Shown piece by piece: positions 151 to 21,571 of a stretch of 22,415 bases of DNA. The translations under genes and the position numbers were made by a program. How positions within the stretch are numbered: the stretch's first letter is position 1; the number at the start of each line of letters is the position of its first letter. This DNA comes from a virus. The stretch is taken from positions 1-22,415 of IMG/VR virus record IMGVR_UViG_3300036719_000583. The stretch is one strand, 5' to 3'. The notes beneath the pieces are model-generated. The model made no database searches. It saw nothing but the letters and a program-made list of their open reading frames with translations, and was not told the origin of the DNA.

Positions 151-1500
151 ATGTTGGAAAAAGTCATTGAAAAACTGGATGCAATCGAAGCATCTAGCGC
201 TGCCAAATTGGCAGAAACCGCTCAGGCCGTCGAAGTAAAAGTTGCTGAGGCTGTCGAGGCTCTTAAAACCGAAACCGAAGCAAAGATTGCCGCATTAGAG
301 GCAAAAGTTGCCGCTCCTTCTATCATCCGTCCTATTCACAAGACCGTCCGTGGCGAAGCAAATCGTCGATTCAAAGACGTTCTCAAGGAGTACATGAAGG
401 CCGGTAACAACATCGAGCGTGAAGTCAAGATCTTTGAATCTGTCGATCAATGCGAAGCGTACATCAAAGAAGCCTCGGCTCTTACGGGTTCGGGTTACGA
501 CGTTGGTGGCCGTACCGCTTACGATCCCGTGTTCGCCGCAAAGCGTCTCGGAAACCCCTTGATGGATCTGTCGCGCATCGTCGCAACTGACGGTTCGGCT
601 TATCAGTTCCGCGTCAAGACCGGCAATGCAGGTGCTCAGTGGGGCTACACCGTTCAGAATAACGGCACACCTACGACTGAAGCCACAAGCATTTGGCAGG
701 TGATCCTTAAGGACTTGAACGCTCAGTTCCCCATCCGTACCGCAGCACTTGATGACATTGACGGCCTCGAGGCTAACGTTGTTGACGATATGCTGATGGA
801 GTTCCAGCAGGCAATGGCAACCTCGATGATCCAGAACAACGATCAGTCGGGCACCGGAACCTCGGTAACGACGGGCGGCGCTGATGGTCTGCGTGGCTTA
901 GATCAGTACGCTGGCGCTAATGCAACCTACACGGGTGGCTCTTGTTCAACGGCTGCTTTCGGTACTTCGGGAACTGCAACGACCAACGGTTTGCACTCGC
1001 TTGCTACCTACGACCAGTTGACGACAAACGCCAACACGGTTGCCGCAAATAATGTGAACTACAAAGATGTGGTTAACTTTATTTACAGCCTGCCACAGCA
1101 GTATTGGACACCGACAGCAGCGTTCATGATCAACCCGATTCTGCTTCAAGGCATTCGCGGGTTAGTCGATCTGCAAGGCCGTCCGATCTATGTTGACGGT
1201 GTTTCGCGCACCGATGGCATTGTTGGTGAATTGCTCGGCTTCAAGGTTGCAGTTAACAAGTATGTCGACAATCCTAGCCAGCCCACCACCGGCGCAGCAG
1301 GGACTACGTCCTACTATCCGATGTACTTTGCGGATTGGCAGCAGTTCCACACCATCGTCATGCGTCTCTCGATGGTTCTCAGGAGATACGACCAGACAGT
1401 TCCGGGATCTATAACATTCTATGGCGAGACTCGTGCAGCCACTTCGGTGCGCGATCCTAATGCCGGTGTGCGTTATCGCTCGACTGGTACGGCTGCTTGA
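151..1500 (+). CDS. HK97-fold major capsid protein with N-terminal scaffold-like region
   Basis: This 449-residue protein is the likely main shell subunit. Residues 1 to about 55 are Ala/Glu/Lys-rich and read as a coiled coil. The region up to about residue 106 matches the size of the HK97 delta (scaffold) domain, which is about 103 residues and is removed by the prohead protease during maturation. The core begins near EASALTGSG at residue 107 and continues with VKTGNA, WGYTV, TSIWQ, NAQFPIR, DDIDGL and NNDQSG. The C-terminal region has PGSITFYGE and SVRDPNAGVR, typical of HK97-fold capsid C-termini. The start is ATG with a strong AGGAGA site at 138-143, 7 nt upstream. The same core motifs recur in the next gene, which is a paralogue. 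The fold is confident; cleavage of the N-terminal region is inferred. Confidence 0.93.
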   Translation: MLEKVIEKLDAIEASSAAKLAETAQAVEVKVAEAVEALKTETEAKIAALEAKVAAPSIIRPIHKTVRGEANRRFKDVLKEYMKAGNNIEREVKIFESVDQCEAYIKEASALTGSGYDVGGRTAYDPVFAAKRLGNPLMDLSRIVATDGSAYQFRVKTGNAGAQWGYTVQNNGTPTTEATSIWQVILKDLNAQFPIRTAALDDIDGLEANVVDDMLMEFQQAMATSMIQNNDQSGTGTSVTTGGADGLRGLDQYAGANATYTGGSCSTAAFGTSGTATTNGLHSLATYDQLTTNANTVAANNVNYKDVVNFIYSLPQQYWTPTAAFMINPILLQGIRGLVDLQGRPIYVDGVSRTDGIVGELLGFKVAVNKYVDNPSQPTTGAAGTTSYYPMYFADWQQFHTIVMRLSMVLRRYDQTVPGSITFYGETRAATSVRDPNAGVRYRSTGTAA

Positions 1501-1504
1501 TAAA

Positions 1505-1529
1505 AGAGGGCGAAAGCCCTCTCCCTTTT
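1505..1529 (+). terminator. Hairpin with GAAA loop and T run between the two capsid genes
   Basis: AGAGGGC (1505-1511) and GCCCTCT (1516-1522) form a perfect 7-bp stem closed by a GAAA (GNRA) tetraloop, followed by CCC and then TTTT (1526-1529). The hairpin begins 4 nt after the stop of the first capsid gene and ends just before the ribosome site of the second. It has the form of a weak intrinsic terminator: the T run is only four long and is separated from the stem by CCC. Partial read-through, giving much less second capsid protein than first, is the likely effect. A role in mRNA 3'-end stability is the alternative. Confidence 0.65.
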
Positions 1530-1535
1530 GGAGAG
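1530..1535 (+). promoter_or_regulatory. Ribosome binding site fixing the start of the second capsid gene
   Basis: GGAGAG lies 3-5 nt before ATG 1539. It supports that ATG over the in-frame TTG at 1497, which overlaps the previous stop (TTGA) but would place the hairpin inside the coding sequence. Confidence 0.7.
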
Positions 1536-1538
1536 ATT

Positions 1539-2567
1539 ATGAAACAGGTTATTTTGGAAGGCTTGAAAAAGGCTCTCCACGAGGGCAAAAGCACTGTCAA
1601 CCTCGCGGAAGCCTCAGCCCTAACCGGCTCAGGCAGCGGGGTTGGTGGTCGCGTTTATAACGAGGATGTGTTTGCATCGCTTCGTTACTGGAACCCATTT
1701 CGGGTTTATGCAAATCAGACAATGACGGCAGACTCGGACATTCAGTTTGTTGTCAAAACAGGTAACGCTGCTAACTCCACAAACCCGTGGGGCTACACGG
1801 TTAACGCCAACTCAGGCTCACCCAATATCGCCACCAGTATTTGGCAGCTTCCGATGCGTGTTATTTCCGCTCAGATGCCAATCAGGGCTGCGGCGATGGA
1901 TGACATTAACGGATTAGACGCTGCGCTTGTCGAAGATCTCGCAATGGAATTTAGCCAGATCGAAGCCGCGTCGATGGCAATCAATAACGATCAGGCAGGC
2001 TCTACAACGACCTCCACAGGCGCTACAAACGGCCTTAGAGGCTTAAAGATGTACGCAGGCACTGCTGGATCATCCGCTGCTTACGGAACGTCAGGAACGG
2101 CCATTACAGCAGGCATACACACCCTTAATACCGTGGGTTATACGCACTCAGGTGGTATTGAGTGGGAAAGCCTTGTAGACGTTGCTAACGCCCTTCCCGG
2201 TCAGTTCTGGAGAATGCCCGGAACCGCGTGGATGATGCACCCGACAGCTATTGCAACGCTGAGGGAATATACTCACTCTGGTAACTCTTACGCACTTGTC
2301 GAGACAGGCGAGAAGGACGAAGGTCCTGCTATAAACATTATGGGCTGGCCGGTGATTGCGAATCCTTATTTGGATGCTCCAGCGATCGGTGCTTCTCCAA
2401 TCTATCTTGCGAACTGGCCTCGGTTTATGTGGATTGTCGATCACTCGGAGATGACGCTTCAGAGGATGGAGCAGACCCAGCCGGGAACGATTACGATATA
2501 TGCTGAGAAGCGGATGGTCTCGACCGTTCGTGATGTAACTGCTGGCGTTCGGCTCATTGGGGCTTAA
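1539..2567 (+). CDS. Second HK97-fold capsid protein, paralogue lacking the scaffold region
   Basis: This 342-residue protein matches the core of the preceding capsid protein along its whole length. It shares EASALTGSG, GVGGR, WNP/GNP, QFxVKTGNA, WGYTV, ATSIWQ, AQMPIR, DDINGLDA, MEFSQ, NNDQAG and GLRGL. At the C-terminus it shares TQPGTITIYAE and STVRDVTAGVR. Only 23 residues precede EASALTGSG, compared with 106 in the first protein, so the coiled-coil scaffold-like region is absent. Codon choice in shared motifs differs heavily, which means the two copies are old or came from different phages. The ATG start is preceded by GGAG at the usual distance. By analogy with the T4 gp23/gp24 pair it may be a vertex or minor shell subunit; an alternative shell protein or a decaying copy is also possible, though no stop or frameshift is seen. 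Confidence 0.88.
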   Translation: MKQVILEGLKKALHEGKSTVNLAEASALTGSGSGVGGRVYNEDVFASLRYWNPFRVYANQTMTADSDIQFVVKTGNAANSTNPWGYTVNANSGSPNIATSIWQLPMRVISAQMPIRAAAMDDINGLDAALVEDLAMEFSQIEAASMAINNDQAGSTTTSTGATNGLRGLKMYAGTAGSSAAYGTSGTAITAGIHTLNTVGYTHSGGIEWESLVDVANALPGQFWRMPGTAWMMHPTAIATLREYTHSGNSYALVETGEKDEGPAINIMGWPVIANPYLDAPAIGASPIYLANWPRFMWIVDHSEMTLQRMEQTQPGTITIYAEKRMVSTVRDVTAGVRLIGA

Positions 2568-2569
2568 TC

Positions 2570-3214
2570 ATGCCTAGCCAACTGCAAGGTAACTTCGGAG
2601 CGGGTTCTCGTAACCCGTTCAACTACTCGAAGGTCATTCAGAGCACCCGTGATCCGGTGACTCAATGGCTGACGTTTGAGGAAATCACCAACCAGTTGAA
2701 TTTATTTCAGGATGAATCGCAGGACGATTACCTAAGTCAGTTAGAACTCGCTACACGGATGGCGATTGAGGACTACTTAGGCACCCCGATCTTTAATGTG
2801 ACTTATCAGGCTTCCTACATGATCTCAGGGCTTATGGCTGCACCTGTAAGTCTTGATCTACCTGAGGTCTCGCAGAATGGCGTGACAATCAATTGGGTGA
2901 AGTATTACACCGACTTAAATCCGCCGACACTCACGACGATTACAAGCTCAAACTACTACTACGACCCCACTGGGAACAAAGTCGTTCTCTTTGAGGTTCC
3001 CAACAACATCAACACCTACATGACTGCGCCGATGCTTTGTCAGTACACCTTACAGGGCTCTGTAATCGGGCAGTATCCTGTCGTAAAGCAAGCGGGGCTT
3101 ATGTTGTTGACGCATTTCTACAATCATCGCTCTGCAATGTCCGCCGAGCCTATAAAGCAGATTCCGTGGGCAGTCGATCAGCTTCTTAGACCCTACAAGC
3201 CGTTGGTGATGTAA
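2570..3214 (+). CDS. Head-tail connector protein, gp6-like
   Basis: This 214-residue protein probably forms the adaptor ring below the portal. The segment LTFEEITNQLNL (from about residue 34), followed by ESQDDYLSQLELATRMAIEDYLG, is the typical helical start of the gp6-like connector family, in which a short helix-turn segment leads into a conserved 'A..AIE.YLG' helix. The middle is beta-rich, and the C-terminus (VKQAGLMLLTHFYNHRSAM) is the helix commonly seen in this family. It is longer than HK97 gp6, close to the roughly 200-residue version found in many phages. Only 2 nt separate it from the second capsid gene, with GGGG 5-8 nt before the stop as a possible ribosome site. Its position after capsid and before head closure supports the call. 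Confidence 0.8.
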   Translation: MPSQLQGNFGAGSRNPFNYSKVIQSTRDPVTQWLTFEEITNQLNLFQDESQDDYLSQLELATRMAIEDYLGTPIFNVTYQASYMISGLMAAPVSLDLPEVSQNGVTINWVKYYTDLNPPTLTTITSSNYYYDPTGNKVVLFEVPNNINTYMTAPMLCQYTLQGSVIGQYPVVKQAGLMLLTHFYNHRSAMSAEPIKQIPWAVDQLLRPYKPLVM

Positions 3215-4731: not shown

Positions 4732-5191
4732 GGTCAAGGGTCTTAAAGAGTTTGAGAATGTGCTGCTTGAGCTACAGCAAGAGTTTGGCTCGACTGCTGC
4801 AAAAAGATCATTGGTGCCTGCACTTAGGAAAGCCGTTGTACCTGCTAAGGATGTCATAAAAGCAAGTGCTCCTATGGACACCGGTAGGTTAAAGACAACC
4901 GTCAGAGTAGGCGCAAAAGTAGCTTCTGGTAAAGACAAGAAGAGGAAGTATCTTAACGAGAATACGCTAGCTTTTGGCTATGTGGATGTTGGTGTCAAGT
5001 ATTACGATGAGAAGGGCGACTACAGGCCTGCCACAGAAGCCTTAGAGTACGGCACAGCACAGCAGCCTGCTAGACCGTTTATAAAACGAGGTTTCCAATC
5101 AGCTATACCTAATATGCTGGAGATCTTAAGATCGGACTTAGGCACACACTTAAATAACTGGGCAAATAAACACAGGGCAAAACGAAAATGA
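4721..5191 (+). CDS. HK97 gp10-like tail/neck protein
   Basis: This 156-residue protein matches the HK97 gp10 family, a virion component at the head-tail joint. It has an N-terminal 'VKGLKEFENVLLELQQEF' helix and 'LVPALRKAVVPAKDVIKASAP' followed by the family hallmark 'DTGRLK' (residues near 48-53). A beta segment 'AFGYVDVGV' follows, then 'ALEYGT...PARPFIKRGF' at the end. The 'P.DTGRL' and 'E.GT....RPF..p' motifs are what define the family, so this is a firm assignment. In most phages this gene sits before the tail terminator; here it follows the tail tube gene. It overlaps the preceding gene by 11 nt and the following gene by 4 nt (ATGA). Confidence 0.88.
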   Translation: MEFEVKGLKEFENVLLELQQEFGSTAAKRSLVPALRKAVVPAKDVIKASAPMDTGRLKTTVRVGAKVASGKDKKRKYLNENTLAFGYVDVGVKYYDEKGDYRPATEALEYGTAQQPARPFIKRGFQSAIPNMLEILRSDLGTHLNNWANKHRAKRK

Positions 5192-5649
5192 AACTACAAG
5201 AAAGACTAGGCGCATTCCAGCGTCAAAAATACAAGACAATCAACTTTGCAAATCAAGAGCTTCAGGTTTATGTACCAACTCGTAACGAGATGAAAAACCT
5301 GATGGACAAGCTCCGCAAGCCAACGCCAGAACTTATAGAGGCCGAATATCAGGACCTCATCAAGTCGCTGTGGGAGTTCGCTTCGCCTACAGACGATGGC
5401 ATTGAAGTCAAAGATGACGATGTTGTCGTTAACGGCTCTAGCATGAAGAATGCAGCGCGTTACAAATCAATTATGAAGATGCGCGAGATCGCAATGATCT
5501 CACTGGTTGGATTCAAAGAAGGCGACGATTTGTTTGCGCTTTCTTACGAGGACATCTCCGATACATTGTCCGAGGTCGAGATCAAAGAACTCGTGAAATC
5601 TATTGAGTCTGTGGTTAACCCGGACTACGAGGAAACGAAAAAAAACTAA
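5188..5649 (+). CDS. Tail assembly chaperone, gpG-like (frameshift donor)
   Basis: This 153-residue cytoplasmic protein is the short product of a gpG/gpGT-type pair that coats the tape measure protein during tail assembly and is absent from the mature virion. It is acidic and helical with a basic N-terminus, and has TNEMKNL-like and SYEDISDTLSEVEIKELVKSI helices. It ends EETKKN-stop with the last codons AAA AAA AAC TAA. That run of eight A residues (5638-5645) contains a slippery heptamer, and the -1 frame stays open to 6014. Position immediately before the tape measure gene, with a frameshift, is diagnostic of this role even though primary sequence is poorly conserved in the family. The start ATG overlaps the previous stop (ATGA). 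Confidence 0.82.
   Translation: MKLQERLGAFQRQKYKTINFANQELQVYVPTRNEMKNLMDKLRKPTPELIEAEYQDLIKSLWEFASPTDDGIEVKDDDVVVNGSSMKNAARYKSIMKMREIAMISLVGFKEGDDLFALSYEDISDTLSEVEIKELVKSIESVVNPDYEETKKN
5640..5646 (+). promoter_or_regulatory. Slippery heptamer A AAA AAC for -1 ribosomal frameshift
   Basis: Read in the upstream frame the site is A_AAA_AAC, which fits X_XXY_YYZ. Slippage by -1 lets both tRNAs re-pair on AAA AAA. The in-frame stop TAA (5647-5649) follows immediately, and the -1 frame is open for 122 more residues. Confidence 0.85.
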
Positions 5650-6014
5650 CGGGGTCGCTATATCTGCAAATCAGGGCGGCGGCCATATTCAACGGTCAAA
5701 GTCCTGAAGTCTTTGATAGCCTTGATGTAGCGACCATTCGAGCGTTAGAATTGATGTATCGAGATGGGATGATTGGTGCTAGACACAATCTAATACTTTC
5801 GTCTCATCTGATGTCGGTTGTTTATAACTTTGCGTCATCGTGGGCCAAAGGCAGTAAGACGATGAAACCGCAAGAGTTCTTCCCTCATATGGAGGCGTAT
5901 TTTGTACCTCCAAAAGAAATGACAAGACAAGAGCGCGACTTTGTGGCTTTTACTTCGCTGCCCGGATTTAAGGCGGAGTATCTTGAAATACTAGGAGGGA
6001 AGCGTGGCAGGTAA
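5646..6014 (+). CDS. T extension of the gpGT-like tail assembly chaperone (by -1 frameshift)
   Basis: This frame has no own start or ribosome site near its beginning; it is entered by -1 slippage at 5640-5646. It continues as LTGSLYLQIRAAAIFNGQ. The extension is 122 residues, so the fusion made from start 5188 is 275 residues. The extension includes a helical region (LDVATIRALELMYRDGMIGARHN), an aromatic middle (VVYNFASSWAKG) and a Pro-rich link (FFPHMEAYFVPPKEMTRQERDF). In lambda the T part recruits the tape measure protein while the G part polymerises on it. It ends at TAA 6012-6014, overlapping the tape measure start by 11 nt. An internal ATG at 5751 could make an 87-residue protein, but it lacks a ribosome site. 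Confidence 0.85.
   Translation, partial: LTGSLYLQIRAAAIFNGQSPEVFDSLDVATIRALELMYRDGMIGARHNLILSSHLMSVVYNFASSWAKGSKTMKPQEFFPHMEAYFVPPKEMTRQERDFVAFTSLPGFKAEYLEILGGKRGR
5653..5735 (+). promoter_or_regulatory. Frameshift-stimulating RNA stem-loop
   Basis: The 12 bases 5653-5664 (GGTCGCTATATC) pair with 5724-5735 (GATGTAGCGACC), giving 12 bp with a single G-U. The stem starts 6 nt after the slippery heptamer, the spacing typical of -1 stimulators. The 59-nt loop contains a second hairpin, TCAAAG (5696-5701) with CTTTGA (5711-5716). Spacer, stem length and location all fit a ribosome-pausing element. Confidence 0.75.
5993..5998 (+). promoter_or_regulatory. Ribosome binding site fixing the GTG start of the tape measure gene
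   Basis: AGGAGG lies 5 nt before GTG 6004 and 17 nt before the in-frame ATG 6016. The spacing favours the GTG. The site lies within the end of the T extension. Confidence 0.75.
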
Positions 6015-8552: not shown

Positions 8553-9223
8553 GTACGCCAATGACAGCGCTAAATAGCGCAAGCATTACTCACGGTGAAT
8601 TTGTAAAACTTACGACATCGACAACAACTTACGCATTTTGTAACGCTGCTGCTCCTATTACGGTTGGCGGCACGACGTTCTCAAATCTGGGAAGTCTTTT
8701 GTCTGTTGGTGCAGTCAATCGAGAAATCAAGGCCACATCAATTGATATGGTGATCGGTCTTATAGGCATTGACCCGACAAACGTATCATTGGTCTTAGGA
8801 TCAAACATCAAGGGCTCGACTATCGAGATCTGGCGAGGATTCTTCGACTCTAATTACCAGATCATCACAAGCCCTAGCACGCAGTTCTTCAAGCGTTATC
8901 AGGGGATTGTTTCCAACATCAGCCTGACTGAGGACTGGAACGAGCAATTAAGAAGCAGAACGGTTACAGCGTCGATCTCTTGCGCTTCTTTCAGGGCCAT
9001 TCTGGAAAACAGAATTGCAGGCATTCGCACGAACGTAAATAGCTGGCAACAACAATACTCGGGCGATACAAGCATGAGTCGAGTCGCGGCGATTGCTGGA
9101 CAGTATTTTGACTTTGGTGCTCCACCGCAGTCTGGATCTCAATCAGCACCGGGATCGGATGTGGTTGTTGGTGTAGAGACGGATATTCAACGCAAATTAG
9201 ATACGGACCTTACCTCACGATGA
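8549..9223 (+). CDS. Putative tail tip / baseplate hub protein
   Basis: This 224-residue protein has the pattern of tail-tip proteins related to DUF2163. It has an N-terminal beta segment on a small substrate-like core ('VKLTTSTTTYAFCNAAAPITVGGTTFSNLGSLLSVG'), then 'IKATSIDMVIGLIGIDP' and 'IKGSTIEIWRGFFD'. The C-terminal half has 'LRSRTVTASISCASFRAILENRIAGIRTN', then 'SWQQQYSGDTSMSRVA' and 'YFDFG'. Such proteins sit between the tape measure and the gpJ-like protein and probably help build the tip hub. The GTG start (GTGA overlap) is supported by AGGGAG at 8535-8540. No enzymatic residues are evident. Family naming is from memory of the motif, not a search. Confidence 0.62.
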   Translation: MSTPMTALNSASITHGEFVKLTTSTTTYAFCNAAAPITVGGTTFSNLGSLLSVGAVNREIKATSIDMVIGLIGIDPTNVSLVLGSNIKGSTIEIWRGFFDSNYQIITSPSTQFFKRYQGIVSNISLTEDWNEQLRSRTVTASISCASFRAILENRIAGIRTNVNSWQQQYSGDTSMSRVAAIAGQYFDFGAPPQSGSQSAPGSDVVVGVETDIQRKLDTDLTSR

Positions 9224-9657
9224 GATACGCGACAAAATACGATCTGCCTCACTTCATTGAGATGATGAAGGCCTACGCAAAAGAAGCCGGTATCAAGGCG
9301 CTACAAGAAAATCAGAACATAGATCAGGTTAAAAATCTATTCGATCAAATGATTAACGGTCGAGGATTTGTTCTTGTTGATGACAATCTTCGCGGGTTTC
9401 TAGCGGCTTATGTTGGCAGGAACTTTTGGAATCGCCACATAAGAGAGCTTCACGAGGTGGCGTGGTGGGTCATGCCAGAGTACAGAAATACAAGTATCGG
9501 CGGGAGATTGTGGTTAAGGTTTAATCAACTCGCTCAGTACATGCTGGATCAAAAACGGGTGGACATTGTGTGTACAAGCCTGATGCCATCTAGCCCGGAA
9601 ATAGACTATACGAAGTATAAATTCAAGCCCTTGCAAGCGACCTTCTTTCGAGAGTAG
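9220..9657 (+). CDS. GNAT-fold acetyltransferase-like protein in tail module
   Basis: This 145-residue protein looks like a GNAT domain. It has an N-terminal helix after a 'RYATKYDLPHFIEMM' start, a strand 'GFVLVDDNLRGFLAAYVG', the central strand 'LHEVAWWVMPEYRNTSIGGRLW' (about residues 78-99), and a long helix with an 'IVCTSLMPS' strand near the end. 'WWVMPEYRNTSIGGRL' resembles the acetyl-CoA-binding motif A, but the usual Gln/Arg-x-x-Gly-x-Gly loop is degenerate because the two glycines are adjacent. Activity is therefore uncertain. It sits where lambda-type phages often carry the tail peptidase gpK, between the tip protein and the central fibre, with ATGA overlap to the gene before and 3 nt to the gene after. 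A tail-assembly or modification role is possible but unknown. Confidence 0.68.
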   Translation: MRYATKYDLPHFIEMMKAYAKEAGIKALQENQNIDQVKNLFDQMINGRGFVLVDDNLRGFLAAYVGRNFWNRHIRELHEVAWWVMPEYRNTSIGGRLWLRFNQLAQYMLDQKRVDIVCTSLMPSSPEIDYTKYKFKPLQATFFRE

Positions 9658-9660
9658 ATC

Positions 9661-12600
9661 ATGCCAGCATCAATTGTCTTAAGCGCAGTTTATGGATCAA
9701 TGGCCGCTGCCGGAGCTGCATTAGGATCTATTGGTCTTGCAGCTGCGACCTTTGCAATCAACTTTGCGGTTTCATTTGTCGTTACGCGAGCTTTTGGTAA
9801 CAAGCCCTCGCAGGCTCAGGATATGGGCGCTAGGCAGCAAATGCCTCCTGCTAACAGTAATTCCATCCCTGTCGTTTATGGCAGTGCGTGGCTAGGCGGA
9901 ACTTTTGTCGATGCGGTGCTGACGACCGATCAAAAGACGATGTATTACGTCATAGCCATAAGTTCTATATCGTCGGATGCGTCCGCAACCTTTACTTATG
10001 ACACGCAAAAGTTTTACTACGGTGATCGCTTAATCACGTTTGATAATGTAGATCAGACTAAAGTAGTATCCCTGACCGATGGTGCAAGTAATGTCGATGA
10101 CAAGATCTCGGGCAATCTGTACATCAGTCTTTACACATCTACGAATGCTGGCGTTATTACTCCTGTAAACGGAACCGCACCTAATGTAACGATGGGCGGA
10201 TCTGAGATCCCCGCATTTCTTCGCTGGCCTGCATCTGGCCGTCAGATGAACGGATTAGCGTTTGCAATCGTCAAACTGAATTACAACGCTGACGCAGGCA
10301 CGACAGGCCTACAGCCCATAACGTTTTACTGCACGCACCTTCCTAAAGGCGGATCTGTTTGTAAGCCCGGCGATGCGTGGTACGACTATATGACAGACGA
10401 GCGTTACGGTGCAGGCATGACTGGTCTCGTGGACTCTGCAAGCGCGACAGCTCTTAACACTTACTCGGATCAGACCATTACCTATACGCCTTCTGGAGGC
10501 GGATCGGCCACACAAGCCCGATACAGAATTAACGGTGTCATAGACACGGGAAGGCCAGTATTAGATAACGTCGAGAAGATGCTGGAGTGCTCCGATAGTT
10601 GGATGGCTTACAACGCCGCCTCGGGGCTGTGGTCGATCATTATCAACAAAGCTGATAGTTCTACATTTTCGTTCAATGACTCAAACTTGATCGGCGAGAT
10701 CAGAGTCTCTGCGATCGACATCAATCAGCAGATCAATCAGATACAAATTGAGTTCCCATCTAAAGACAATCGGGATCAGCCCGATATGGTGTTTCTTGAG
10801 ACACCTGCGGGCCTAAGGTATCCCAACGAACCTGATAACAGACAAACAACCAGCCTAGACTTTTGCAACAACTCTGTGCAAGCCCAGTACCTCGGTAATA
10901 GAAGGCTAGAACAGGCACGAGAAGATCTCATCGTCACCATCACCTCGACATATCCGGGCATACAAGTCGATGCGGGCGATGTGGTTGACATTACAAACGC
11001 AGACTACGGATGGACAAACAAGCTCTTCCGAGTCATGAAGGTATCCGAGGCTACGGTAGATGACGGGAACTTAGGAGCTACATTAGAACTATCTGAATAC
11101 AATGCTGATGTTTATAACGACTCAAGTATTACAGCGTTTGCTCCTGCGCCTAACTCTAGTCTGCCGTCTCCGACTTACTTCTCGAGTCTGAATGCTCCGG
11201 TCTTAGGCGATCTTGCGCCTTCTGCTGCGCCTCCTACATTCTCGGCTACTTGCACGATGCCGACTGTAGGTCGAGTCACTACCGTCACATTGTTCTATAC
11301 GAGTTCTGCGACCCCTTCTGCAACAGACTGGAAAGTCATCAGCTCTCAAATCCTGAGCAACGGATCGACGTTTGCAAACTCAAGTACGGTTAAGTTCCAG
11401 AATCTGCAAATAGCCGGTGGAACGTGGTACTTCGCCTTTTCTGTTTCCAATGAGTCAGCTAAGAGCGCACTGTCGGCTACGAGCGCAGCATTTGTGTGGT
11501 CGCCTACAGGAATGGCGGGACCTACGGGGCCACAGGGGCCTACAGGCAGTCAGGGGCCAACGGGAGATCAGGGACCAACGGGAGCACAGGGCCCGACGGG
11601 AAGTTCTGGCCCGACAGGTGGATCTGGGCTCATAGGTATTGCCTTTATTAACGCTTATCTTGTTCAGTCACAAACCGCATCCACACCTTCTTTCTCAACA
11701 CCGACATCTGGCTCTGCGGTTCCTGCTGGATGGTCGTCTACGGTTCCCGGCATTTCTATCGGTCAGGTGCTTTGGTATCTACAGGGAAGATACAACGCTA
11801 ACGCAGTGACGGTAGATGGAGTGCCTGCTAATTCAACAGCGTGGACAGGACCCATAGCTGCCTCTGTGTTTCAGAGCATTCTTTCTGACAACTACAACGG
11901 CCCTATTCCTCCGACCTCTTCCAGTTACGGAACGGCAGGCTGGTATCTCGACAAGACCTCTGGCGGTTTATATGCGTCTGCTGCGTATCTCCGGGGAGAG
12001 ATTGCCTCTGGTACCGGATCAAACCGGATCACAATCAACAACTCCAACAACCTTGAGATTCAGGGCTACACGACTTACGGTGGAACGACTCCGTGGTTCT
12101 CGATGGGTGTATCTGGTTACGACACAAAGATCCTGAGTGTCAATGCCGTTAATTACCCTTATGCGGATTGTGCGGTTCAGTTCTTAGGCGGTGCCTCTGG
12201 TCAATTCACGCTTAAGGTTCCCAATGGAGCTGGATCTCCGTTAGTTAAGGGCGCTTACTTCAGTGCATTTGCAGCCGAGGCGCTTGTCGTTGAAAGAACA
12301 TCTTCCCTAACAAACGGAAACGGCTCTACGTTTTCTAATGCCAATGGTTATGCAATCAGGGTTTTGACTGGCGGCATCGCTTCTAATGTTTATTACTTCC
12401 CGAATACCTCAGCAGGCTTCACGCAGATCCAAAACATCCCCAACAACACGACGACCTTTTTGAGAGGCGACGGTTCGTGGGCTTCAGGCATTGCCGGACC
12501 TACGGGGCCGACGGGCCCGCAAGGTATACAAGGCGATCAGGGGATACAAGGAAATCCCGGACCTACTGGCCCGCAGGGTGCTACTGGCCCAGCATCAACG

Positions 12601-13203
12601 GTTCCCGGACCTACTGGCCCGCAGGGTCCTACCGGCGCAGCGTCTACCGTTCCGGGGCCAACAGGCCCGCAGGGAGCTACAGGTCCGACGGGAGCTACGC
12701 CTTCGCTGCCTGATCCGTGGACAAACTCAATTGCTCTTGCTTCCGGTAAGACGGCCTCACTAAGAGGAACATCCTTTGCAGACAACTCGTGGGTCTTTAC
12801 GAACAGCACCGGTTCCTATGCAACTGGAGCTAACATCGTTCTTTACACGAGCAGTGCCTCACAAACGTGGACATTCAACAGTAACGGTAATGCTTATGCT
12901 GATGCTGGTTCGTGGGTTAACTCTTCAGACAGAAACGTCAAAGAGAACATCCAGAACTACAGTGGTGGACTTCAGAAGATCCTTGCTTTGCAACCCGTGA
13001 AATTCAATTACATCGGTCAGGCCGATCCTCACTTAGGCTTTATCGCTCAGGATGTTGAGTCGATCATTCCTGAAGTGGTTTCGTCTGTTGACACGCCTAA
13101 AGGTCAGCGTCTAGGCCTTGCGATGACTGAGATGATCGCTGTGTTAACCAACGCGGTGAAAGAACTAGAGGCAAGGATTGCGTCGCTAGAGCAAAAGCCG
13201 TAG
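9661..13203 (+). CDS. gpJ-like central tail fibre / tip attachment protein with collagen-like repeats and S74 chaperone
   Basis: At 1180 residues this is the likely central tail-tip protein that contacts the host. Residues 5-45 are hydrophobic (Ala/Gly/Leu helices), as at the N-terminus of many gpJ-like proteins, and 'IPVVYG' follows at 69-74. A hub-like core ends with '[19 protein letters not shown]' and '[15 protein letters not shown]'. Residues about 510-618 look like a fibronectin-III-type domain. Gly-X-Y collagen-like repeats occupy about 619-655 and 943-1014. The C-terminus (about 1088-1180) is a peptidase S74 intramolecular chaperone: S-D-R-N-V-K puts Ser1089 and Lys1094 in the spacing of the endosialidase self-cleavage dyad, followed by [15 protein letters not shown] and a final coiled coil. 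It starts at ATG 3 nt after the GNAT stop. Confidence 0.9.
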
Positions 13204-13279: not shown

Positions 13280-13762
13280 TTGGCTATCTTCAACAAGAAT
13301 ACGTTGACACAGGTCAGCGGGTTCAACAATCAGATTATTGCCGGTGAGCTGGTATACAACCAGAAAACTTACTGGAATCTGACGCTCAACAATGAATCGG
13401 GTTCGCCATTCAACTTAACTGGCGCGACCATCACAAGTCAGATCATCCGTAGACAACTCTCAAACGTCAGAGACTCCAGATACGGATTGACATTCGATAT
13501 TTCCGATTACACGCCAGCTCCCAGTCCAGTAAACCTTACGATCACGAATCAGAATCTGTCTGGTGGATCGTTTACTCTCGTGATAGATGAAGCAGCGTGG
13601 TCGGTGCTGTCAACAGATGTGCAACTAGACATTAACGCCAACAATCCTGTCGGTTTTTCTGGGAACATCACGATAGCTATCCCTGCTAGCGGATCTACGC
13701 CTGCTCAAGACCTGATTGTCTTTTTGTTGTTCCTCGTCAGATCCAACGGGGTGACAAATTGA
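13280..13762 (+). CDS. Putative baseplate or fibre-anchor protein (BppU N-terminal-like pattern)
   Basis: This 160-residue protein has a TTG start with a GAGGGA site at 13271-13276. The sequence ([30 protein letters not shown], then [24 protein letters not shown]) has the rhythm of an immunoglobulin-like domain: 'Y.W.LTL.......DLTGATVT..IR' is what one sees in BppU N-terminal-like baseplate domains. It ends with short hydrophobic strands ([10 protein letters not shown]). It is the first gene of the fibre block, just after the central fibre, so a role anchoring the following collagen fibre is plausible. The stop overlaps the next start by 4 nt (TTGA). Domain assignment is tentative. Confidence 0.55.
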
Positions 13763-15159
13763 GCGACGTTAACCTTACTATCACCGGCGGCACACAGGTA
13801 ACACTGATTGTCGATCAGGGCGTTATCGGCCCGACAGGCCCTGCGGGTGCAGGGACAGACATTCCAGTCTCCAATGCTGGCACACAGATTACGTCAGGAC
13901 TCACATCTCTTAACATCACCGGCCCCGGTGCTACAGCGACAGCAGTCGGTGGTGATGTCACAGTCACGATTATTGGCGGTGGAGCTACAGGCCCAACCGG
14001 CGCTCAAGGCCCCACAGGACCCACTGGCAGTCAGGGTGATGTCGGACCTACTGGCGCTGCATCTACCGTCCCCGGCCCCACAGGACCGCAAGGTGTTACA
14101 GGACCCACAGGCCCTGCTTCTACAGTAGCCGGACCCACTGGCCCTACAGGCGCAGCATCCACTGTAGCCGGTCCTACAGGGCCCACAGGAGCCGCATCTA
14201 CGGTGGCTGGACCTACGGGCCCCACTGGTGAGACTGGGCCCACAGGAGGCCTCGGCCCGACAGGACCCACGGGTCCCGCGGGAACCGGGACAAACATTGC
14301 TGTCTCGGATGAGGGCTCAGTCTTAACCACTGGAGTCACTTCCTTTAACTTTGTTGGTTTAGGTGTCGCTGCAACGGCTGTAGGCGATGCGGTCACTGTC
14401 ACTATTCCCGGCGGTGGATTCGGAGCAACCGGCCCCACAGGCCCCACAGGCCCGCAAGGCGATATTGGACCGACCGGCAGTCAGGGTCCCACGGGTGTTC
14501 AAGGAAACATCGGTCCAACGGGTCCGCAGGGTGACATTGGCCCGACCGGCGCTCAAGGTCCAACAGGTGCTCAAGGTCCGACCGGCGCTCAGGGCCCTAC
14601 GGGTGTAGCTGGTCCAACTGGTAGTCAGGGACCTACTGGCCCGACCGGGGAAATTGGCCCCACTGGCGCTCAAGGTAACGTCGGCCCTACCGGCCCCACT
14701 GGTATTCAAGGTAATGTTGGACCCACCGGCCCGACGGGAAATGTTGGTCCCACAGGCGCTCAGGGAAATATTGGCCCAACTGGTCCGACGGGTGACATCG
14801 GTCCCACAGGTCCTGCATCTACGGTAGCGGGTCCAACCGGACCAACCGGAGCTGCTTCTACGGTAGCTGGGCCAACCGGACCTACTGGTGCAGCCTCTAC
14901 AGTCGCGGGACCTACGGGGCCAACCGGCGCTGATTCAACGGTTCCCGGACCAACAGGTCCCACTGGAGCTGCGTCTACTGTGGCAGGTCCAACGGGCCCC
15001 ACGGGTGCAGCTTCGACCGTAGCAGGCCCAACAGGCCCTACAGGGGCTGCTTCTACAGTTCCGGGTCCTACAGGCAGTATTGGTCCCACAGGGCCTACAG
15101 GCCCAGCAGGAGGCGGTGGCGGTGGTGGTAGTCCTGCTTATGCGTGGTTCATTTCCTAG
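13759..15159 (+). CDS. Collagen-like tail fibre protein
   Basis: This 466-residue protein is dominated by Gly-X-Y repeats ([15 protein letters not shown]). It begins with a short beta segment ([20 protein letters not shown]), then repeats. Two 43-residue beta modules of related sequence ('..I.VS..G...T.G.TS.N..G.G..ATAVG..VTVTI.GGG') lie at residues 33-75 and 178-220. The repeats include 13-residue units [13 protein letters not shown] that break the strict triplet. It ends in a seven-glycine run and [10 protein letters not shown] trimeric collagen-like rod carrying beta knobs is the likely form; the host lacks the hydroxylation that stabilises animal collagen, so stability comes from other residues. 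The TTG start overlaps the previous stop (TTGA). It is probably a side fibre of the virion. Confidence 0.82.
13855..13983 (+). repeat. First 43-residue beta module of the collagen-like fibre
   Basis: Residues 33-75 of the fibre follow 'I.VS..G...T.G.TS.N..G.G..ATAVG..VTVTI.GGG'. The same pattern recurs at 14290-14418. Conservation is at protein level. Confidence 0.7.
14058..14230 (+). repeat. 13-residue collagen-like repeat cluster 1
   Basis: About three to four copies of the 39-nt unit encoding [13 protein letters not shown], with variant codons. Confidence 0.7.
14290..14418 (+). repeat. Second 43-residue beta module of the collagen-like fibre
   Basis: Residues 178-220 of the fibre repeat the 13855-13983 module at equal length. 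Shared residues include TxxGxTSxN, ATAVG and VTVTI. Confidence 0.7.
14812..15084 (+). repeat. 13-residue collagen-like repeat cluster 2
   Basis: About seven tandem copies of the 39-nt unit encoding (A/P)[12 protein letters not shown]. Amino acids are almost constant while third bases vary widely, for example Thr ACG/ACA/ACT/ACC and Gly GGT/GGA/GGC/GGG. Confidence 0.75.
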
Positions 15160-16017: not shown

Positions 16018-16395
16018 ATGGCAAACCCAAACATCGTTAACGTAGCAACGATCTTAGGTAATACCTCTTACCTGATCCCTGCTAATACCACTGCTAATAC
16101 GTGGACAGCACTCACGGCAAGCACCAATTACGTTAACCGCATCGACTTCATGACTGCGTCTAACGTTACTTCGGCTGCTGCGACGGTTACTGTGTCCATC
16201 AACTCGGCTACTGCGGGTGGTGGAACGGCTTACAGAGTTGCTTATCAGATCACGGTTCCCGCGAATTCGACGCTTGTGATTCTTGATAAGACGACTGCGA
16301 TGTATGTCGGTGAGTCTCAGTCGGTTGTTGTCACAGTGGGCACTGCAAGCGCGATTGAGCTTGTTGCCAGCTACGAAGCCATTAGCAACACATGA
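16018..16395 (+). CDS. Small beta-rich virion protein
   Basis: This 125-residue protein has alternating beta strands (SYLIPANTTANTW, ATVTVSINSATAGGGTAYRVAYQITVPANSTLVILD, SVVVTVGTASAIELVASYEAI). The segment near 'YRVAYQITVPANSTLVILDKT' is alignable in pattern with the N-terminal beta domain of the preceding fibre, so the two may share a fold. The ATG has a GGAAAC site 9 nt upstream of it. A head or tail decoration, or a small fibre component, is likely; the exact location in the virion is unknown. Its stop overlaps the next start by 4 nt (ATGA). Confidence 0.65.
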   Translation: MANPNIVNVATILGNTSYLIPANTTANTWTALTASTNYVNRIDFMTASNVTSAAATVTVSINSATAGGGTAYRVAYQITVPANSTLVILDKTTAMYVGESQSVVVTVGTASAIELVASYEAISNT

Positions 16396-18101
16396 GCTTA
16401 GATCGGTATCTCGGCAGTTTCATTACTGCTAGTCCCACAGCCCCGACCCAGACCTCAGCACAAGGGGTATGGGAGCTTGAGCAACAAGCATCGGCTCAGG
16501 TTCAGAATGCGTGGCCTCTACCGCCTAATGTCATACAGAGATCGCTGCGGTTTAACAGTGCGGATAGCACTTACCTGAATTGGACGCCTTCCGTCGCGGC
16601 AACTAGCAATCAAAAGTTGACATATTCAACGTGGGTAAAACGAAGCGTCTTATCAACCTATCAACATTTTGGCCTTACCGCTGCTGTGTCTGGATCTTCT
16701 AGGGATGCAATGCGGTTTGATCAAGACTCTCAAGATGTTATTCAGGTTTATTTTGACGAAGGCGGAACTTATAACGTAAGAACATCCGCTGTCTTTAGAG
16801 ATCCTAGTGCGTGGTATAACATCGTTATTGCGATTGATACGACGTTATCGACTACATCGCAACGTGTCCGCATCTATGTTAACAATGTGGAGCAAACCTT
16901 AACTGGCACTCAGCCCATACAGAATTATCAGTTTTTAGGGTTTCTTGTTTCTGGAAAAGCGCAAAATATCGGTCGACACCCTAGCGCAGCTTTTTATTTC
17001 AACGGCTATCTGAGCGATGTTTATTGCATCGACGGCCAGCAGCTAACCCCATCCTCCTTCGGCGAAACCGATCCCCAGACAGGCGTATGGATACCTAAAG
17101 TCTACACAGGCAGCTACGGCACGAATGGCTTTAGGCTAAGGTTCAACAACAACAGCAGCACGACAGCATTAGGCTACGACACATCGGGCAACGGTAATAA
17201 CTGGACACCTAATAACTTCTCTGTCACCGCAGGATCAGGTAACGACTCTATGTTAGATGTGCCGAGTCTGTACGGCACAGATACGGGTCTAGGCGGCGAG
17301 GTGAGGGGGAATTACGCGACGTGGAACCCGCTTGAAACGATTACGACATCAAAACCAACAAACGGCAATTTAGATTACGCTCCTTCTTCAACCTCACCTC
17401 AAGTGGCTTTTTCAAGTATAGCGATTCCTTCCACTGGCAAATGGTACGCAGAGATTACAAAAGGTGATGCAAACACCAGCTGGCCCGTTGGCATTCAGGG
17501 TCCAACAAGAAGCGGAATTACTTATGCAAGCCAAACCGAAGGTATTGCGTATTGGGCTGGAGGTCAGATTTATAAAGACTCGGCACTAATTAGATCTGGT
17601 TTGGTGACGGCAACAACAAATGACGTTATTGGTATAGCGGTCGATTCAGATGCAAAAACCGTGCTGTTTTATAAAAATGGCGTTGTTATAACAACAGCAA
17701 TTAGCTATACATATTCTCAGGTTTGGTTTGCTTGCGGCAACTATGTGTCTGGTTTGCTTTTCTACGCCAACTTCGGCCAACGCCCCTTTGCATATACCGC
17801 ACCATCAGGATTTAAGGCGCTGTGTACGACGAACTTATCCGCATCGGGAACGGTAACGACTAGCGGCACATTCACAGGTAATGCTTCTACAGACGGCCCG
17901 TTTATTTACCTTAACGGCATCCCAACGGCTATGACGATCAACGGTAATGCAGTGACGTTTGGCACACAGGCAGACAAGCTCAGTAACGGCTTTAAGGTTC
18001 GCTCATCAAGTTCAAGCTATAACACCTCTGGATCTAACACTTATTCGGTGTCTACGACAGGCGCAATCTTCCGTTACTCTAACGCTCAAGGGAACCCATA
18101 A
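16392..18101 (+). CDS. LamG-like and SPRY-like adhesin (tail fibre)
   Basis: This 569-residue protein probably binds host surface glycans. Residues 1-45 carry a docking-like motif 'PTQTSAQGVWELEQQ...NAWP'. Residues about 48-218 are LamG-like ('RSLRFNSADSTYLNWTP', then 'KLTYSTWVKRS', and 'YFNGYLSDVYCIDGQQLTPSSFGE'). Residues about 300-470 match a SPRY-type domain ('GKWYAEITKG', 'DVIGIAVDSDAKTVLFYKNG') and continue as NFGQRPFAYTAPSGFKALC. The last 90 residues are a further beta domain with serine-rich strands. It overlaps the previous gene (ATGA) and the next (TAATG). No glycosidase residues are apparent, so this is likely binding rather than cleavage. Confidence 0.82.
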   Translation: MSLDRYLGSFITASPTAPTQTSAQGVWELEQQASAQVQNAWPLPPNVIQRSLRFNSADSTYLNWTPSVAATSNQKLTYSTWVKRSVLSTYQHFGLTAAVSGSSRDAMRFDQDSQDVIQVYFDEGGTYNVRTSAVFRDPSAWYNIVIAIDTTLSTTSQRVRIYVNNVEQTLTGTQPIQNYQFLGFLVSGKAQNIGRHPSAAFYFNGYLSDVYCIDGQQLTPSSFGETDPQTGVWIPKVYTGSYGTNGFRLRFNNNSSTTALGYDTSGNGNNWTPNNFSVTAGSGNDSMLDVPSLYGTDTGLGGEVRGNYATWNPLETITTSKPTNGNLDYAPSSTSPQVAFSSIAIPSTGKWYAEITKGDANTSWPVGIQGPTRSGITYASQTEGIAYWAGGQIYKDSALIRSGLVTATTNDVIGIAVDSDAKTVLFYKNGVVITTAISYTYSQVWFACGNYVSGLLFYANFGQRPFAYTAPSGFKALCTTNLSASGTVTTSGTFTGNASTDGPFIYLNGIPTAMTINGNAVTFGTQADKLSNGFKVRSSSSSYNTSGSNTYSVSTTGAIFRYSNAQGNP

Positions 18102-21100
18102 TGTCTCGCTTCCCCGGCAACATCATCAAGCTACCGAATGTAACCCCGACACAGAGCAGCGCATCTGGAGTCTGGTCACTCAAAGATCAGATGGTTTACC
18201 AGAGAAACAACCTCTGGCCGTTCCAGCGCGATCCGTACTTCAACTACACGACGTTACTTCTACAAGGCAACGTCCCCAACACGACAGGTCCACAGGCGAT
18301 GAACCTGCCCCTGTCTTACAACGCAGACGCTAGTACCAATAACTTCCTTGTCACGCCTAATGGTGACGTTGGCCCTCGTCCGTTCAGCCCGTACTTTGGG
18401 GGGAATTACAGTGTTTATTTTGATGGTGCTACAAGCACACGGTTAACGCTTGCAAGCAGTTCTGATTTTGCTTTTGGCACCGGTGCTTACACAATTGAAG
18501 CATGGGTATATTTAGCCGCTTATGCCTCAAATGGAAATGTGATATTTGATACGGGCAACGCCTCAAGTTCTTTGTACTTTACGGTTGGCTCTTCAGGCGC
18601 ATTGGCAATTGGCAAGCAAGGTACGGGCTATTTAATAACAAGCGCCAATAGTGTGGTTGCTTTGAACACATGGGTGCATGTAGCCATATCTCGCTCAAGC
18701 ACATCGTCTAATGACACGCGGCTGTTTGTAAATGGAGTTTTTGTTGCGGTTGGAACGGATAGCAATAATTGGACGGTAACAACGACGCCAACGATTGGCG
18801 GTATTAACGCCAGCGGATACACCACGACAGGCTACATCTCTAATCTTTCGGTATTAAAAGGCACCGCTAAATACACCACCAATTTCACGCCAACTGCACA
18901 GGCGCTACCGACAGGCACGACTAATCAGGTGTTGCTTGCCTGTGCTTCAAATCGTTTCATTGACACCAACACTGCAACGACAGCTAAGGCCATCACTGTC
19001 AACGGCGACTCCCGCATCACCGACAACAGCCCGTTTGTATCCACCGACTTCACGACCGGCGCGGGGTACTTTAAGGGTGCAGCGTCAGATTACTTGAGCC
19101 TTGCCGATAACGCTGCGTGGGACATTCCGGGCCAGTTTTCCATTGAGCTATCCGTCTATTTCAATAGCACCTCGTCACCGCAGACCCTCCTGTCACATTT
19201 GGACGCGCTTCCCGGCAATGGTTTCTTCTTCAGGATCGCTTCGGGCAATCTGGAATTTGGCTATGGAGACGGGACGGGTTCTTTCTCTGTAACGGCTGCA
19301 TTCACGATTGTGACTGGAACGTGGTTCCACTTGCTTGCAACCAGAGATAGCGGGAATAGGATCCGCCTATTCTCAAACGGTGTGATGCTTACCAACACCG
19401 TTCAGTCGAAAAACATGACCGGCAGCACCGGACCGCTTGAGATTGGAAGGCAAAGCCCAATAGCATCGTGGTACTTCAACGGCTACATGTCCAACGTCCG
19501 TATCGTCAACGGATCGGTGCCTACGGGGTATCAAACTAGCAGCACGACGAATGGTACGCAGATCTTCACGCCGCCAACTGAGATGCTTACAACGACATCT
19601 CAAGGTACAACGGCAGGGGATGTAAAGCTCCTCACCCTCCAGACTCGCGCTCCATCCCAGAACATCAACTTCATCGACTCCAGCCCCAACGAGTTCATCG
19701 TTACAAAGAACGGCAATACGACGCAGGGTACGTTCAGCCCATTTAGTCCTACGGGGTGGGGGAATCGTTTCGATGGCTCCTCTGGAAAGCTTGCATTTCC
19801 AACAGGATCGTTTGTCTTTGGCAACTCAGACTTCACCATTGAAGCGTGGGTATACAACACAGGAACGACTACAGGCGCATTTTTTACCAATCAATATACA
19901 AGCGGCGCAAGTACGACATCAATTATTGGTGCTATAGGATCAACCAATGGTAACTTTGATATGTACATTGGCGGTTCTGTGTATTCGCTTACAGGCATAA
20001 ATCCGACTTCAAACCAGTGGGTTCATGTTGCTATTGTGCGAACTGGTGGTACGGTTTCGGTGTTTCAGGGTGGCAACAGAACGCATACCAGATCTGACCT
20101 TAGCACGTTATCAATCAACGCCGGAGGCACATCCGTTCCACCTCAAATTGGTGATGGTGTAAACGGTTTTTTATCTAACCACAGGGTAATCATTGGAAGT
20201 GGGCCGTATGACGCAACTCAAGCGTCTATTACTGTACCAACCGCTCCGCTCACCGTAACTGCAAACACGAAGCTTCTTACCTGCCAATCAAACCGTTTCA
20301 TTGACCAAACCGGCAAGACGATTACCGTCACAGGTACCCCCTCCGTACAAGCCTTCTCTCCTTTCGCTCCTGCAAATGCTGTCAGCCCACTCGTCACAGG
20401 AGGGTCGGGGTATTTCAACGGCTCGTCTAATCTGACGGTTCCAGCGAACAATATTTTTGATTTTGCGGCGGGACAAGCATTTACGTTTGAGTGCTGGTTC
20501 TATTGCACGACGACTGGCTCACAAACCATAACGCAAGAAGGAGCAAACACCTTTTCCCTTGATGTAACGCCTAGTTCCGCATCAATTAACTACGGCAAAT
20601 CCGGGGTTGCAAATATCATTTCAGTAACGTCTAGCAATTTTACGGCAAACGCGTGGATGCACCTAGTCATCTGTAGGAACACCAGCAATCAAAGCCGCAT
20701 GTGGCTCAATGGCGTTTCAGTTGGATCTAGCAATAGCGACACATACGCCTTTAACAACGCAGTCAACTACATAGGATCAAATGCCAACCCTTCGTCATAT
20801 TTGAATGGCTACATTAGTGGCTTGCGCGTCCTAAAGGGATCAGCACTTTACGATCCAACCTCTTCAAGCAACATCCCCGTCCCCACCACCCCACCAACAG
20901 CAATACCCAACACTTCCCTTCTACTGAACTTCACTAACGGCGCAGCAGTTGATGCGACGGGTAAGAACGTTGTTGAATCAGTAGGCACGGCGCAGTTAAG
21001 TACAAGGGTCACAAAATTCGCAGGCACTGGGTCAGGGTATTTTGATGCCACAGCCGCTTATCAAACCATTCCGAATACGGCTGGCCTTATTGCGCTTCCG

Positions 21101-21571
21101 GGTGATTTCACACTAGAGCTTTGGGCTTACCGTCTTGACGCAACAAACAATACTTACTTTTGTGTCTTTGGGAATCAAGCGGCTGGGAATAATGGCTTCT
21201 TGTTTTGGGTTACCGGCGGATCGGCTAATGCAATTCGTTTTTACAGCAACGGCGCTTTTGTCATGTCAGGTGCGAATAACGCCGTTCCGCTGAATCAATG
21301 GACGCATATTGCCCTTGTCAGAAGTGGAACAGCCACAAACAATATGCGGTGCTATATCGACGGGGTAGAGGACACTGCTGCGAGAGCTACTAACACGACG
21401 GCATTTGTCGGCGTCTCTGGAAACGGCCTCGCGATAGGCACCGAATACAGCGGATCCTTTAGCGGTACACGCGCAGCCTTCTATTACAGCAACTACCGAC
21501 TTACGAGGTACGCCCGTTACACCTCCAACTTCAACACGAATCTCCCCACCGGACCTTTCCCCATAGGCTAA
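18101..21571 (+). CDS. Five-LamG adhesin (tail fibre)
   Basis: This 1156-residue protein is the largest in the fibre block after the gpJ-like protein. An N-terminal docking-like motif (residues 1-45: 'VTPTQSSASGVWSLKDQ...NLWP') matches that of the preceding protein. Five LamG-like (concanavalin A-type) domains begin near residues 103, 320, 555, 769 and 978, spaced by 217, 235, 214 and 209. Each opens with 'YFDG/YFNG/RFDG' and 'FTIEAWVY' and contains 'WxHVAIxR'. Linkers recur as 'LL.C.SNRFID....ITV.G......FSPF'. The ATG start overlaps the previous stop by one base. Multivalent glycan binding is the likely role; a purely structural use of LamG is the alternative. No signal peptide or enzymatic motif is visible. 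Confidence 0.85.
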   Translation: MSRFPGNIIKLPNVTPTQSSASGVWSLKDQMVYQRNNLWPFQRDPYFNYTTLLLQGNVPNTTGPQAMNLPLSYNADASTNNFLVTPNGDVGPRPFSPYFGGNYSVYFDGATSTRLTLASSSDFAFGTGAYTIEAWVYLAAYASNGNVIFDTGNASSSLYFTVGSSGALAIGKQGTGYLITSANSVVALNTWVHVAISRSSTSSNDTRLFVNGVFVAVGTDSNNWTVTTTPTIGGINASGYTTTGYISNLSVLKGTAKYTTNFTPTAQALPTGTTNQVLLACASNRFIDTNTATTAKAITVNGDSRITDNSPFVSTDFTTGAGYFKGAASDYLSLADNAAWDIPGQFSIELSVYFNSTSSPQTLLSHLDALPGNGFFFRIASGNLEFGYGDGTGSFSVTAAFTIVTGTWFHLLATRDSGNRIRLFSNGVMLTNTVQSKNMTGSTGPLEIGRQSPIASWYFNGYMSNVRIVNGSVPTGYQTSSTTNGTQIFTPPTEMLTTTSQGTTAGDVKLLTLQTRAPSQNINFIDSSPNEFIVTKNGNTTQGTFSPFSPTGWGNRFDGSSGKLAFPTGSFVFGNSDFTIEAWVYNTGTTTGAFFTNQYTSGASTTSIIGAIGSTNGNFDMYIGGSVYSLTGINPTSNQWVHVAIVRTGGTVSVFQGGNRTHTRSDLSTLSINAGGTSVPPQIGDGVNGFLSNHRVIIGSGPYDATQASITVPTAPLTVTANTKLLTCQSNRFIDQTGKTITVTGTPSVQAFSPFAPANAVSPLVTGGSGYFNGSSNLTVPANNIFDFAAGQAFTFECWFYCTTTGSQTITQEGANTFSLDVTPSSASINYGKSGVANIISVTSSNFTANAWMHLVICRNTSNQSRMWLNGVSVGSSNSDTYAFNNAVNYIGSNANPSSYLNGYISGLRVLKGSALYDPTSSSNIPVPTTPPTAIPNTSLLLNFTNGAAVDATGKNVVESVGTAQLSTRVTKFAGTGSGYFDATAAYQTIPNTAGLIALPGDFTLELWAYRLDATNNTYFCVFGNQAAGNNGFLFWVTGGSANAIRFYSNGAFVMSGANNAVPLNQWTHIALVRSGTATNNMRCYIDGVEDTAARATNTTAFVGVSGNGLAIGTEYSGSFSGTRAAFYYSNYRLTRYARYTSNFNTNLPTGPFPIG

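Follow-up and report, generated by a model that had tools for sequence, protein, structure and literature searches.

Most tailed phages build both the hexamers and the pentamers of their heads from one protein; HK97 has a single shell gene, gp5, with a delta domain, and its gp4 is an S78 protease. In RcGTA, a single capsid protein forms pentamers as well as hexamers (PMC7296036). In T4, gp24 is a paralogue of gp23 and forms the vertices, and the protease removes 65 N-terminal residues from gp23 and 10 from gp24 (PMC9958956; PMC3185693). Operons of family 2B encapsulins encode two HK97-fold shell paralogues, about 60% identical, for which mixed shells have been proposed (PMC8346489). For siphophages, our searches of the open-access literature gave no account of a tandem capsid/vertex pair. 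Here we analyze a linear IMG/VR viral contig of 22,415 bp (the whole stretch of DNA analyzed, hereafter the window), in which two adjacent genes encode HK97-fold capsid paralogues, MCP1 and MCP2.

Two HK97-fold capsid genes in one head module

The head-module features described here lie on the plus strand. The window opens with the C-terminal end of a Peptidase_S78 prohead serine protease gene (1–139), cut at the window edge. The full-length gene is present in a near-identical contig (L003, 3704–4492) and matches PF04586 at E=8e-9, with a TIGR01543 score below the family cut-off; the upstream S78-type protease has conserved His and Ser motifs, and gp4 of the isolated relative P19250A matches the head maturation protease families phrog_3244/phrog_80. 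MCP1, a major capsid protein of 449 aa (151–1500), and MCP2, of 342 aa and without a long N-terminal domain (1539–2567), follow as intact ORFs, and next in the head module comes a head-tail adaptor gene (2570–3214), whose P19250A homologue belongs to phrog_40/phrog_442; tail genes lie downstream of it. The start of MCP2 is ATG 1539, which has a Shine-Dalgarno-like GGAGAG in front of it (1530–1535, by direct reading, and conserved in the window's clade) and is common to the aligned relatives. The mechanical ORF start, TTG 1497, was rejected because ATG 1539 aligns across relatives instead.

An earlier note on this DNA, made from the letters, had proposed that 151–2567 holds tandem HK97-type capsid paralogues with motifs in common along the whole HK97 core, and both points are borne out. 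MCP1 matches PF05065 (Phage_capsid) at E=1e-21 (78.1 bits, cut-off 24.2), TIGR01554 at E=4.7e-26 (91.8 bits, cut-off 27.5) and phrog_10; MCP2 matches PF05065 at E=1.6e-19 (70.8 bits) and TIGR01554 at E=5.1e-17 (62.1 bits), against the same cut-offs. The TIGR01554 alignment to MCP2 begins only at profile position 87, indicating that MCP2 is without the delta-domain part. BLASTP aligns the two proteins over 345 columns at 42% identity (E=1e-64), covering MCP1 residues 105–441, and the family alignment contains 60 columns that are conserved and identical in both paralogues, from E24 to A335 of MCP2, with core loops that are longer in MCP1 than in MCP2. Structure prediction, which the note had put forward as a check, yields an HK97-type fold for both proteins, and the best PDB match of either model is the RcGTA capsid 6tb9, the nearest solved relative; the AF2 model of MCP2 has a mean pLDDT of 69 and matches 6tb9 in Foldseek at E=1.8e-14. 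Profile searches of PDB sequences likewise place the RcGTA capsid first (E=4e-11 for MCP1, E=5e-5 for MCP2). Profiles were required, as phmmer searches of the PDB with single MCP sequences returned only noise. A plasmid search gave no match.

Several other genes in the window were noted in passing. Two short ORFs ahead of the tape-measure gene (5188–6014) sit where lambda has its G/GT tail chaperones. A 145-aa protein among the tail genes, directly before the J-like protein (9220–9657), resembles a GNAT acetyltransferase by eye, with no Pfam match. Two tail-region proteins (9661–13203 and 13759–15159) contain long collagen-like GPTGPTG repeat tracts, with a Peptidase_S74 (endosialidase chaperone) domain at the end of the larger one. 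A SPRY-domain protein (16392–18101) precedes a protein of 1156 aa (18101–21571) that contains five Laminin_G_3 (concanavalin-like lectin) stretches; these two are probably receptor-binding or adhesion proteins. The start of a family 2 glycosyltransferase-like gene lies behind the tail-fibre genes (21906–22415), cut at the contig end.

Distribution and age of the pair

Among 50,697 phage records, clear homologues occur only in Methylophilaceae phage P19250A, whose laboratory host is the LD28-clade strain IMCC19250. Its gp5, annotated "gene transfer agent capsid protein," is 58% identical to MCP1, and its gp6, 55% identical to MCP2 and in the same gene order, is annotated "hypothetical protein"; the pair has thus gone unrecorded there as two capsid proteins. 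We rejected a gene transfer agent as the source of these genes because P19250A, in which the pair also occurs, has a complete phage genome of 38.7 kb, equipped with terminase, portal, tail, recombinase and holin genes of its own.

To survey the wider group, we ran six IMG/VR scans, seeded with MCP2, MCP1 and the most distant members, and one GTDB genome scan, each returning at most its best 80 matches. These gave at least 339 sequences with capsid matches, the window and P19250A included, from a large group of tailed phages that is mostly freshwater. MCP1 and MCP2 are adjacent in at least 320 loci, some of them on one and the same contig, which represent 258 distinct DNA sequences, so that the search for the pair in related phages, suggested along with the original observation, extends it to hundreds of loci and to an isolate. 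The remaining loci among the matches listed comprise 17 that are cut by a contig end and two with a frameshift, one in MCP1 (L223) and one in MCP2 (L293). None of the matches listed is a single-gene locus with room on both sides, although remoter ones are possible; the note had held that free loss or disabling of the second gene by close relatives would speak against a distinct role, and among these matches we see no clean loss and that one MCP2 frameshift. The order is always protease-MCP1-MCP2-adaptor, and where the contig leaves room the flanking gene is nearly always found: the protease in 242/242 loci, the portal in 186/189 and the adaptor in 284/285. Four matches come from MAGs, with the labels Nitrosotalea, alpha-, beta- and gammaproteobacteria, and these may be mis-binned phage contigs. 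The GTDB contig labelled Nitrosotalea (L176) places the same phage capsid pair in an archaeal MAG, most likely through mis-binning.

When 35 representatives of each paralogue are placed in one tree, the MCP1 sequences fall into a single clade and so do the MCP2 sequences (100/100; 100% bootstraps), which indicates that a single duplication predates the radiation of the group and agrees with the earlier view of the duplication as ancient rather than recent. Long branches separate the paralogues (1.1 and 0.6 changes per column). Across genomes, the identities of MCP1 and MCP2 are correlated (r=0.77), with MCP2 evolving faster family-wide (mean identity 63% vs 71% for MCP1), and dN/dS against the window is 0.03–0.11 for MCP2 and 0.04–0.07 for MCP1. 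Purifying selection on MCP2 is as strong as on MCP1, and this selection, together with the parallel evolution of the two genes, argues that MCP2 is functional and coupled to MCP1. A recent duplication or an assembly artefact is ruled out by the reciprocal clades and the at least 320 paired loci, and a pseudogene by dN/dS; the reciprocal clades also argue against whole-gene conversion between the paralogues.

Predicted processing junctions and the intergenic hairpin

Counting from the N-terminus, the first alignment column with the same conserved residue in MCP1 and MCP2 holds a glutamate (E107 and E24, respectively), which marks the predicted end of an N-terminal propeptide in each protein; in P19250A, the corresponding predicted sites follow gp5 Glu106 and gp6 Glu34. 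In MCP1, the scaffold-like propeptide would comprise residues 1–107 (151–471), with a predicted site at Ile-Lys-Glu107|Ala; the model places helices at 2–53, 66–83 and 98–109 and a strand at 90–93, and with a mean pLDDT of 55 it serves as a guide only. The length of about 106 residues first assigned to this extension, and its restriction to MCP1, stand, but a long helix is predicted only for residues 2–53. In MCP2, 23 residues precede the junction Glu24, modeled at pLDDT 69 as a short helix (2–15) and a strand (17–21), and the segment to Leu-Ala-Glu24|Ala (residues 1–24, 1539–1610) is a predicted short propeptide. A motif search finds the junction Glu in 252/252 matched MCP1 copies, with Ala next in 245, while 68 further MCP1 copies, many being truncated at a contig end or differing in loop length, fall outside the motif pattern; in MCP2 it finds Glu in 319/320 copies and Ala next in 311. 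Nearly all copies have Leu, Ile, Met or Val two residues before the junction Glu, and the pre-Glu segment of MCP2 is mostly 22–28 residues long, reaching 43. T4 and related proteases cleave after Glu in such motifs (PMC5694885).

Because MCP2 has this junction in common with MCP1 and an S78 protease gene adjoins the pair, cleavage of a short MCP2 propeptide at Phi-x-Glu|Ala is probable. The suggestion in the note that the second protein skips scaffold cleavage is thus not supported: MCP2 probably has a short propeptide instead, like T4 gp24. Conservation of the junction Glu might alternatively reflect a function in the mature N-arm instead of cleavage. At the N-terminus of the protease itself, in L003 (3704–4492) and its relatives, hydrophobic residues lead up to a conserved Glu, with Ala or Ser next (e.g., FFYEAKV), which is possibly a self-cleavage site as in T4 gp21. 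We also observed that the junction motif is similar within each genome, EASALTGSG in the window and GLQGSG in P19250A.

The gap between the two genes, mostly 44–83 nt among the representatives, harbors a hairpin. In the window, the stem-loop AGAGGGC-GAAA-GCCCTCT (1505–1522) is followed by CCCTTTT, forming a terminator-like element with a weak T-run (1505–1529; z=-2.95). A hairpin of dG<=-9 kcal/mol occurs in the gap of all 35 representatives, compared with 129/2032 random windows of the same loci and 156/2100 shuffled gaps, and z<-2 folding is seen in 151/158 distinct gaps. Hairpin sequences differ completely between subclades while the hairpin persists, suggesting that the structure, not the letters, is kept. 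An exact-stem terminator search proved too strict (17/35), and the folding-based search with controls was used instead; by it, a canonical terminator is present in 23/35 gaps vs 23/2032 control windows. Within the clade of the window itself, few T follow the hairpin (2–4 T in 8), and a generic terminator scan (>=5 T) did not call the window hairpin, which in this subclade can thus be no more than a weak terminator. A canonical terminator behind the main capsid gene predicts that MCP2 is less abundant than MCP1, and from this arrangement we infer that MCP2 is made in lower amount. A separate feature of the gap is that CTCTCC, on the 3' side of the hairpin, could pair with GGAGAG in an alternative hairpin (1516–1535), one that would mask the ribosome site of MCP2. 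This pairing potential is kept in the window's subclade, making translational control of MCP2 by the alternative fold possible.

Proposed role of MCP2 and comparison with known systems

A two-component capsid in which MCP2 is the minor, probably vertex, subunit is the best-supported mechanism, and we regard it as reasonably probable. MCP1, with its coiled-coil, delta-like scaffold attached, would be the abundant, hexamer-forming subunit, and MCP2, a diverged paralogue made in smaller amount, would occupy special positions, of which the 11 pentameric vertices are the likeliest. The hairpin or terminator in the gap would help to set output, allowing only part of transcription (or translation) to get to MCP2, and the S78 protease is predicted to remove propeptides of about 107 residues from MCP1 and 24 residues from MCP2 at Phi-x-Glu|Ala. 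The copy number, cleavage and vertex location of MCP2 are what we infer, and neither sequence nor models prove its placement in pentamers rather than hexamers. A vertex or minor role, as first suggested in the note, is still the best reading and is strengthened by the conserved hairpin/terminator; only the skipping of cleavage is not supported. More tentatively, at somewhat less than even confidence, we suggest that an abundant freshwater siphophage lineage with RcGTA-like capsids has independently evolved a dedicated vertex protein, one that resembles T4 gp24 by convergence even in its short propeptide, and that the intrinsic terminator sets the ratio of hexamer to pentamer subunits (about 360:55 if T=7).

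MCP2 could instead be a minor subunit mixed into hexamers or located at one special place, such as around the portal, which we consider unlikely. The 60 conserved identical columns make co-assembly in one lattice possible, and the mixed shells proposed for family 2B encapsulins offer a precedent (PMC8346489); however, the long branches between the paralogues (1.1, 0.6) and the longer core loops of MCP1 suggest different environments for the two proteins, and the solved tailed-phage precedent, T4, is a vertex. As a protein with a full HK97 fold, able in principle to assemble alone and separated in expression by the hairpin, MCP2 might form particles separate from or alternative to the normal virion, such as small heads or empty decoys, or might set head size, without being part of that virion. 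This seems to us very improbable, since among the matches listed MCP2 occurs without MCP1 in the head operon only at contig ends and no second portal or protease gene is annotated in the P19250A genome.

A place for MCP2 in assembly alone, as an assembly factor or nucleation subunit absent from mature heads, would accord with its faster evolution family-wide (63% vs 71% mean identity) and with its want of the long scaffold-like domain, which implies a different interaction with the assembly core; yet the 60 shared core columns from E24 to A335 would be needless for a transient factor, and we give this explanation little credence. That MCP2 is a redundant duplicate heading for loss is scarcely believable: the one frameshifted MCP2 (L293) would fit, but one frameshift among hundreds of assemblies is no more than sequencing error would produce (L223 has one in MCP1), and at least 320 intact pairs, dN/dS of 0.03–0.11 and a duplication older than the whole group stand against it. 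A second such duplication, apparently independent of that in T4, in a simple phage (about 38 kb) would make it directly testable why and how a vertex specialist evolves, the isolate P19250A being already described. For annotation, this means that hundreds of viral contigs encode a capsid paralogue behind the capsid gene, under the label "hypothetical protein."

The locus can be compared with several known systems. With HK97 it has in common a fused scaffold-like N-terminus in MCP1 and an S78 protease directly upstream, and it differs in the presence of MCP2, which is without the long delta-like part. The RcGTA capsid (Rcc01687; 6tb9) is the closest solved relative of both MCP1 and MCP2 in fold and sequence, although RcGTA has one capsid protein and this locus two (PMC7296036). 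Family 2B encapsulins also place two HK97-fold shell paralogues in one operon, but they are cellular, non-phage cargo compartments without portal, protease or packaging genes. The resemblance to T4 gp23/gp24 extends to two retained HK97-fold paralogues that arose by duplication, to a long pre-segment in the first and a short one in the second before a Glu-ending junction, and to a prohead protease within the head module (PMC9958956, PMC5694885). Unlike T4, the proteins belong to the PF05065/RcGTA-like family and are 42% identical vs about 20% for gp23/gp24, and the genomes are about 38 kb and siphophage-like, with a hairpin between the capsid genes. Membership of the T4 gp23/gp24 family by descent was rejected, as no T4 capsid chain appeared among the PDB profile matches or the best 50 fold matches; the likeness to T4 is thus one of plan, not of close descent, and, the two MCPs being each other's nearest kin, the duplication is apparently independent of that in T4. 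The same pair, in the same gene order, is carried by the isolated relative P19250A as gp5/gp6.
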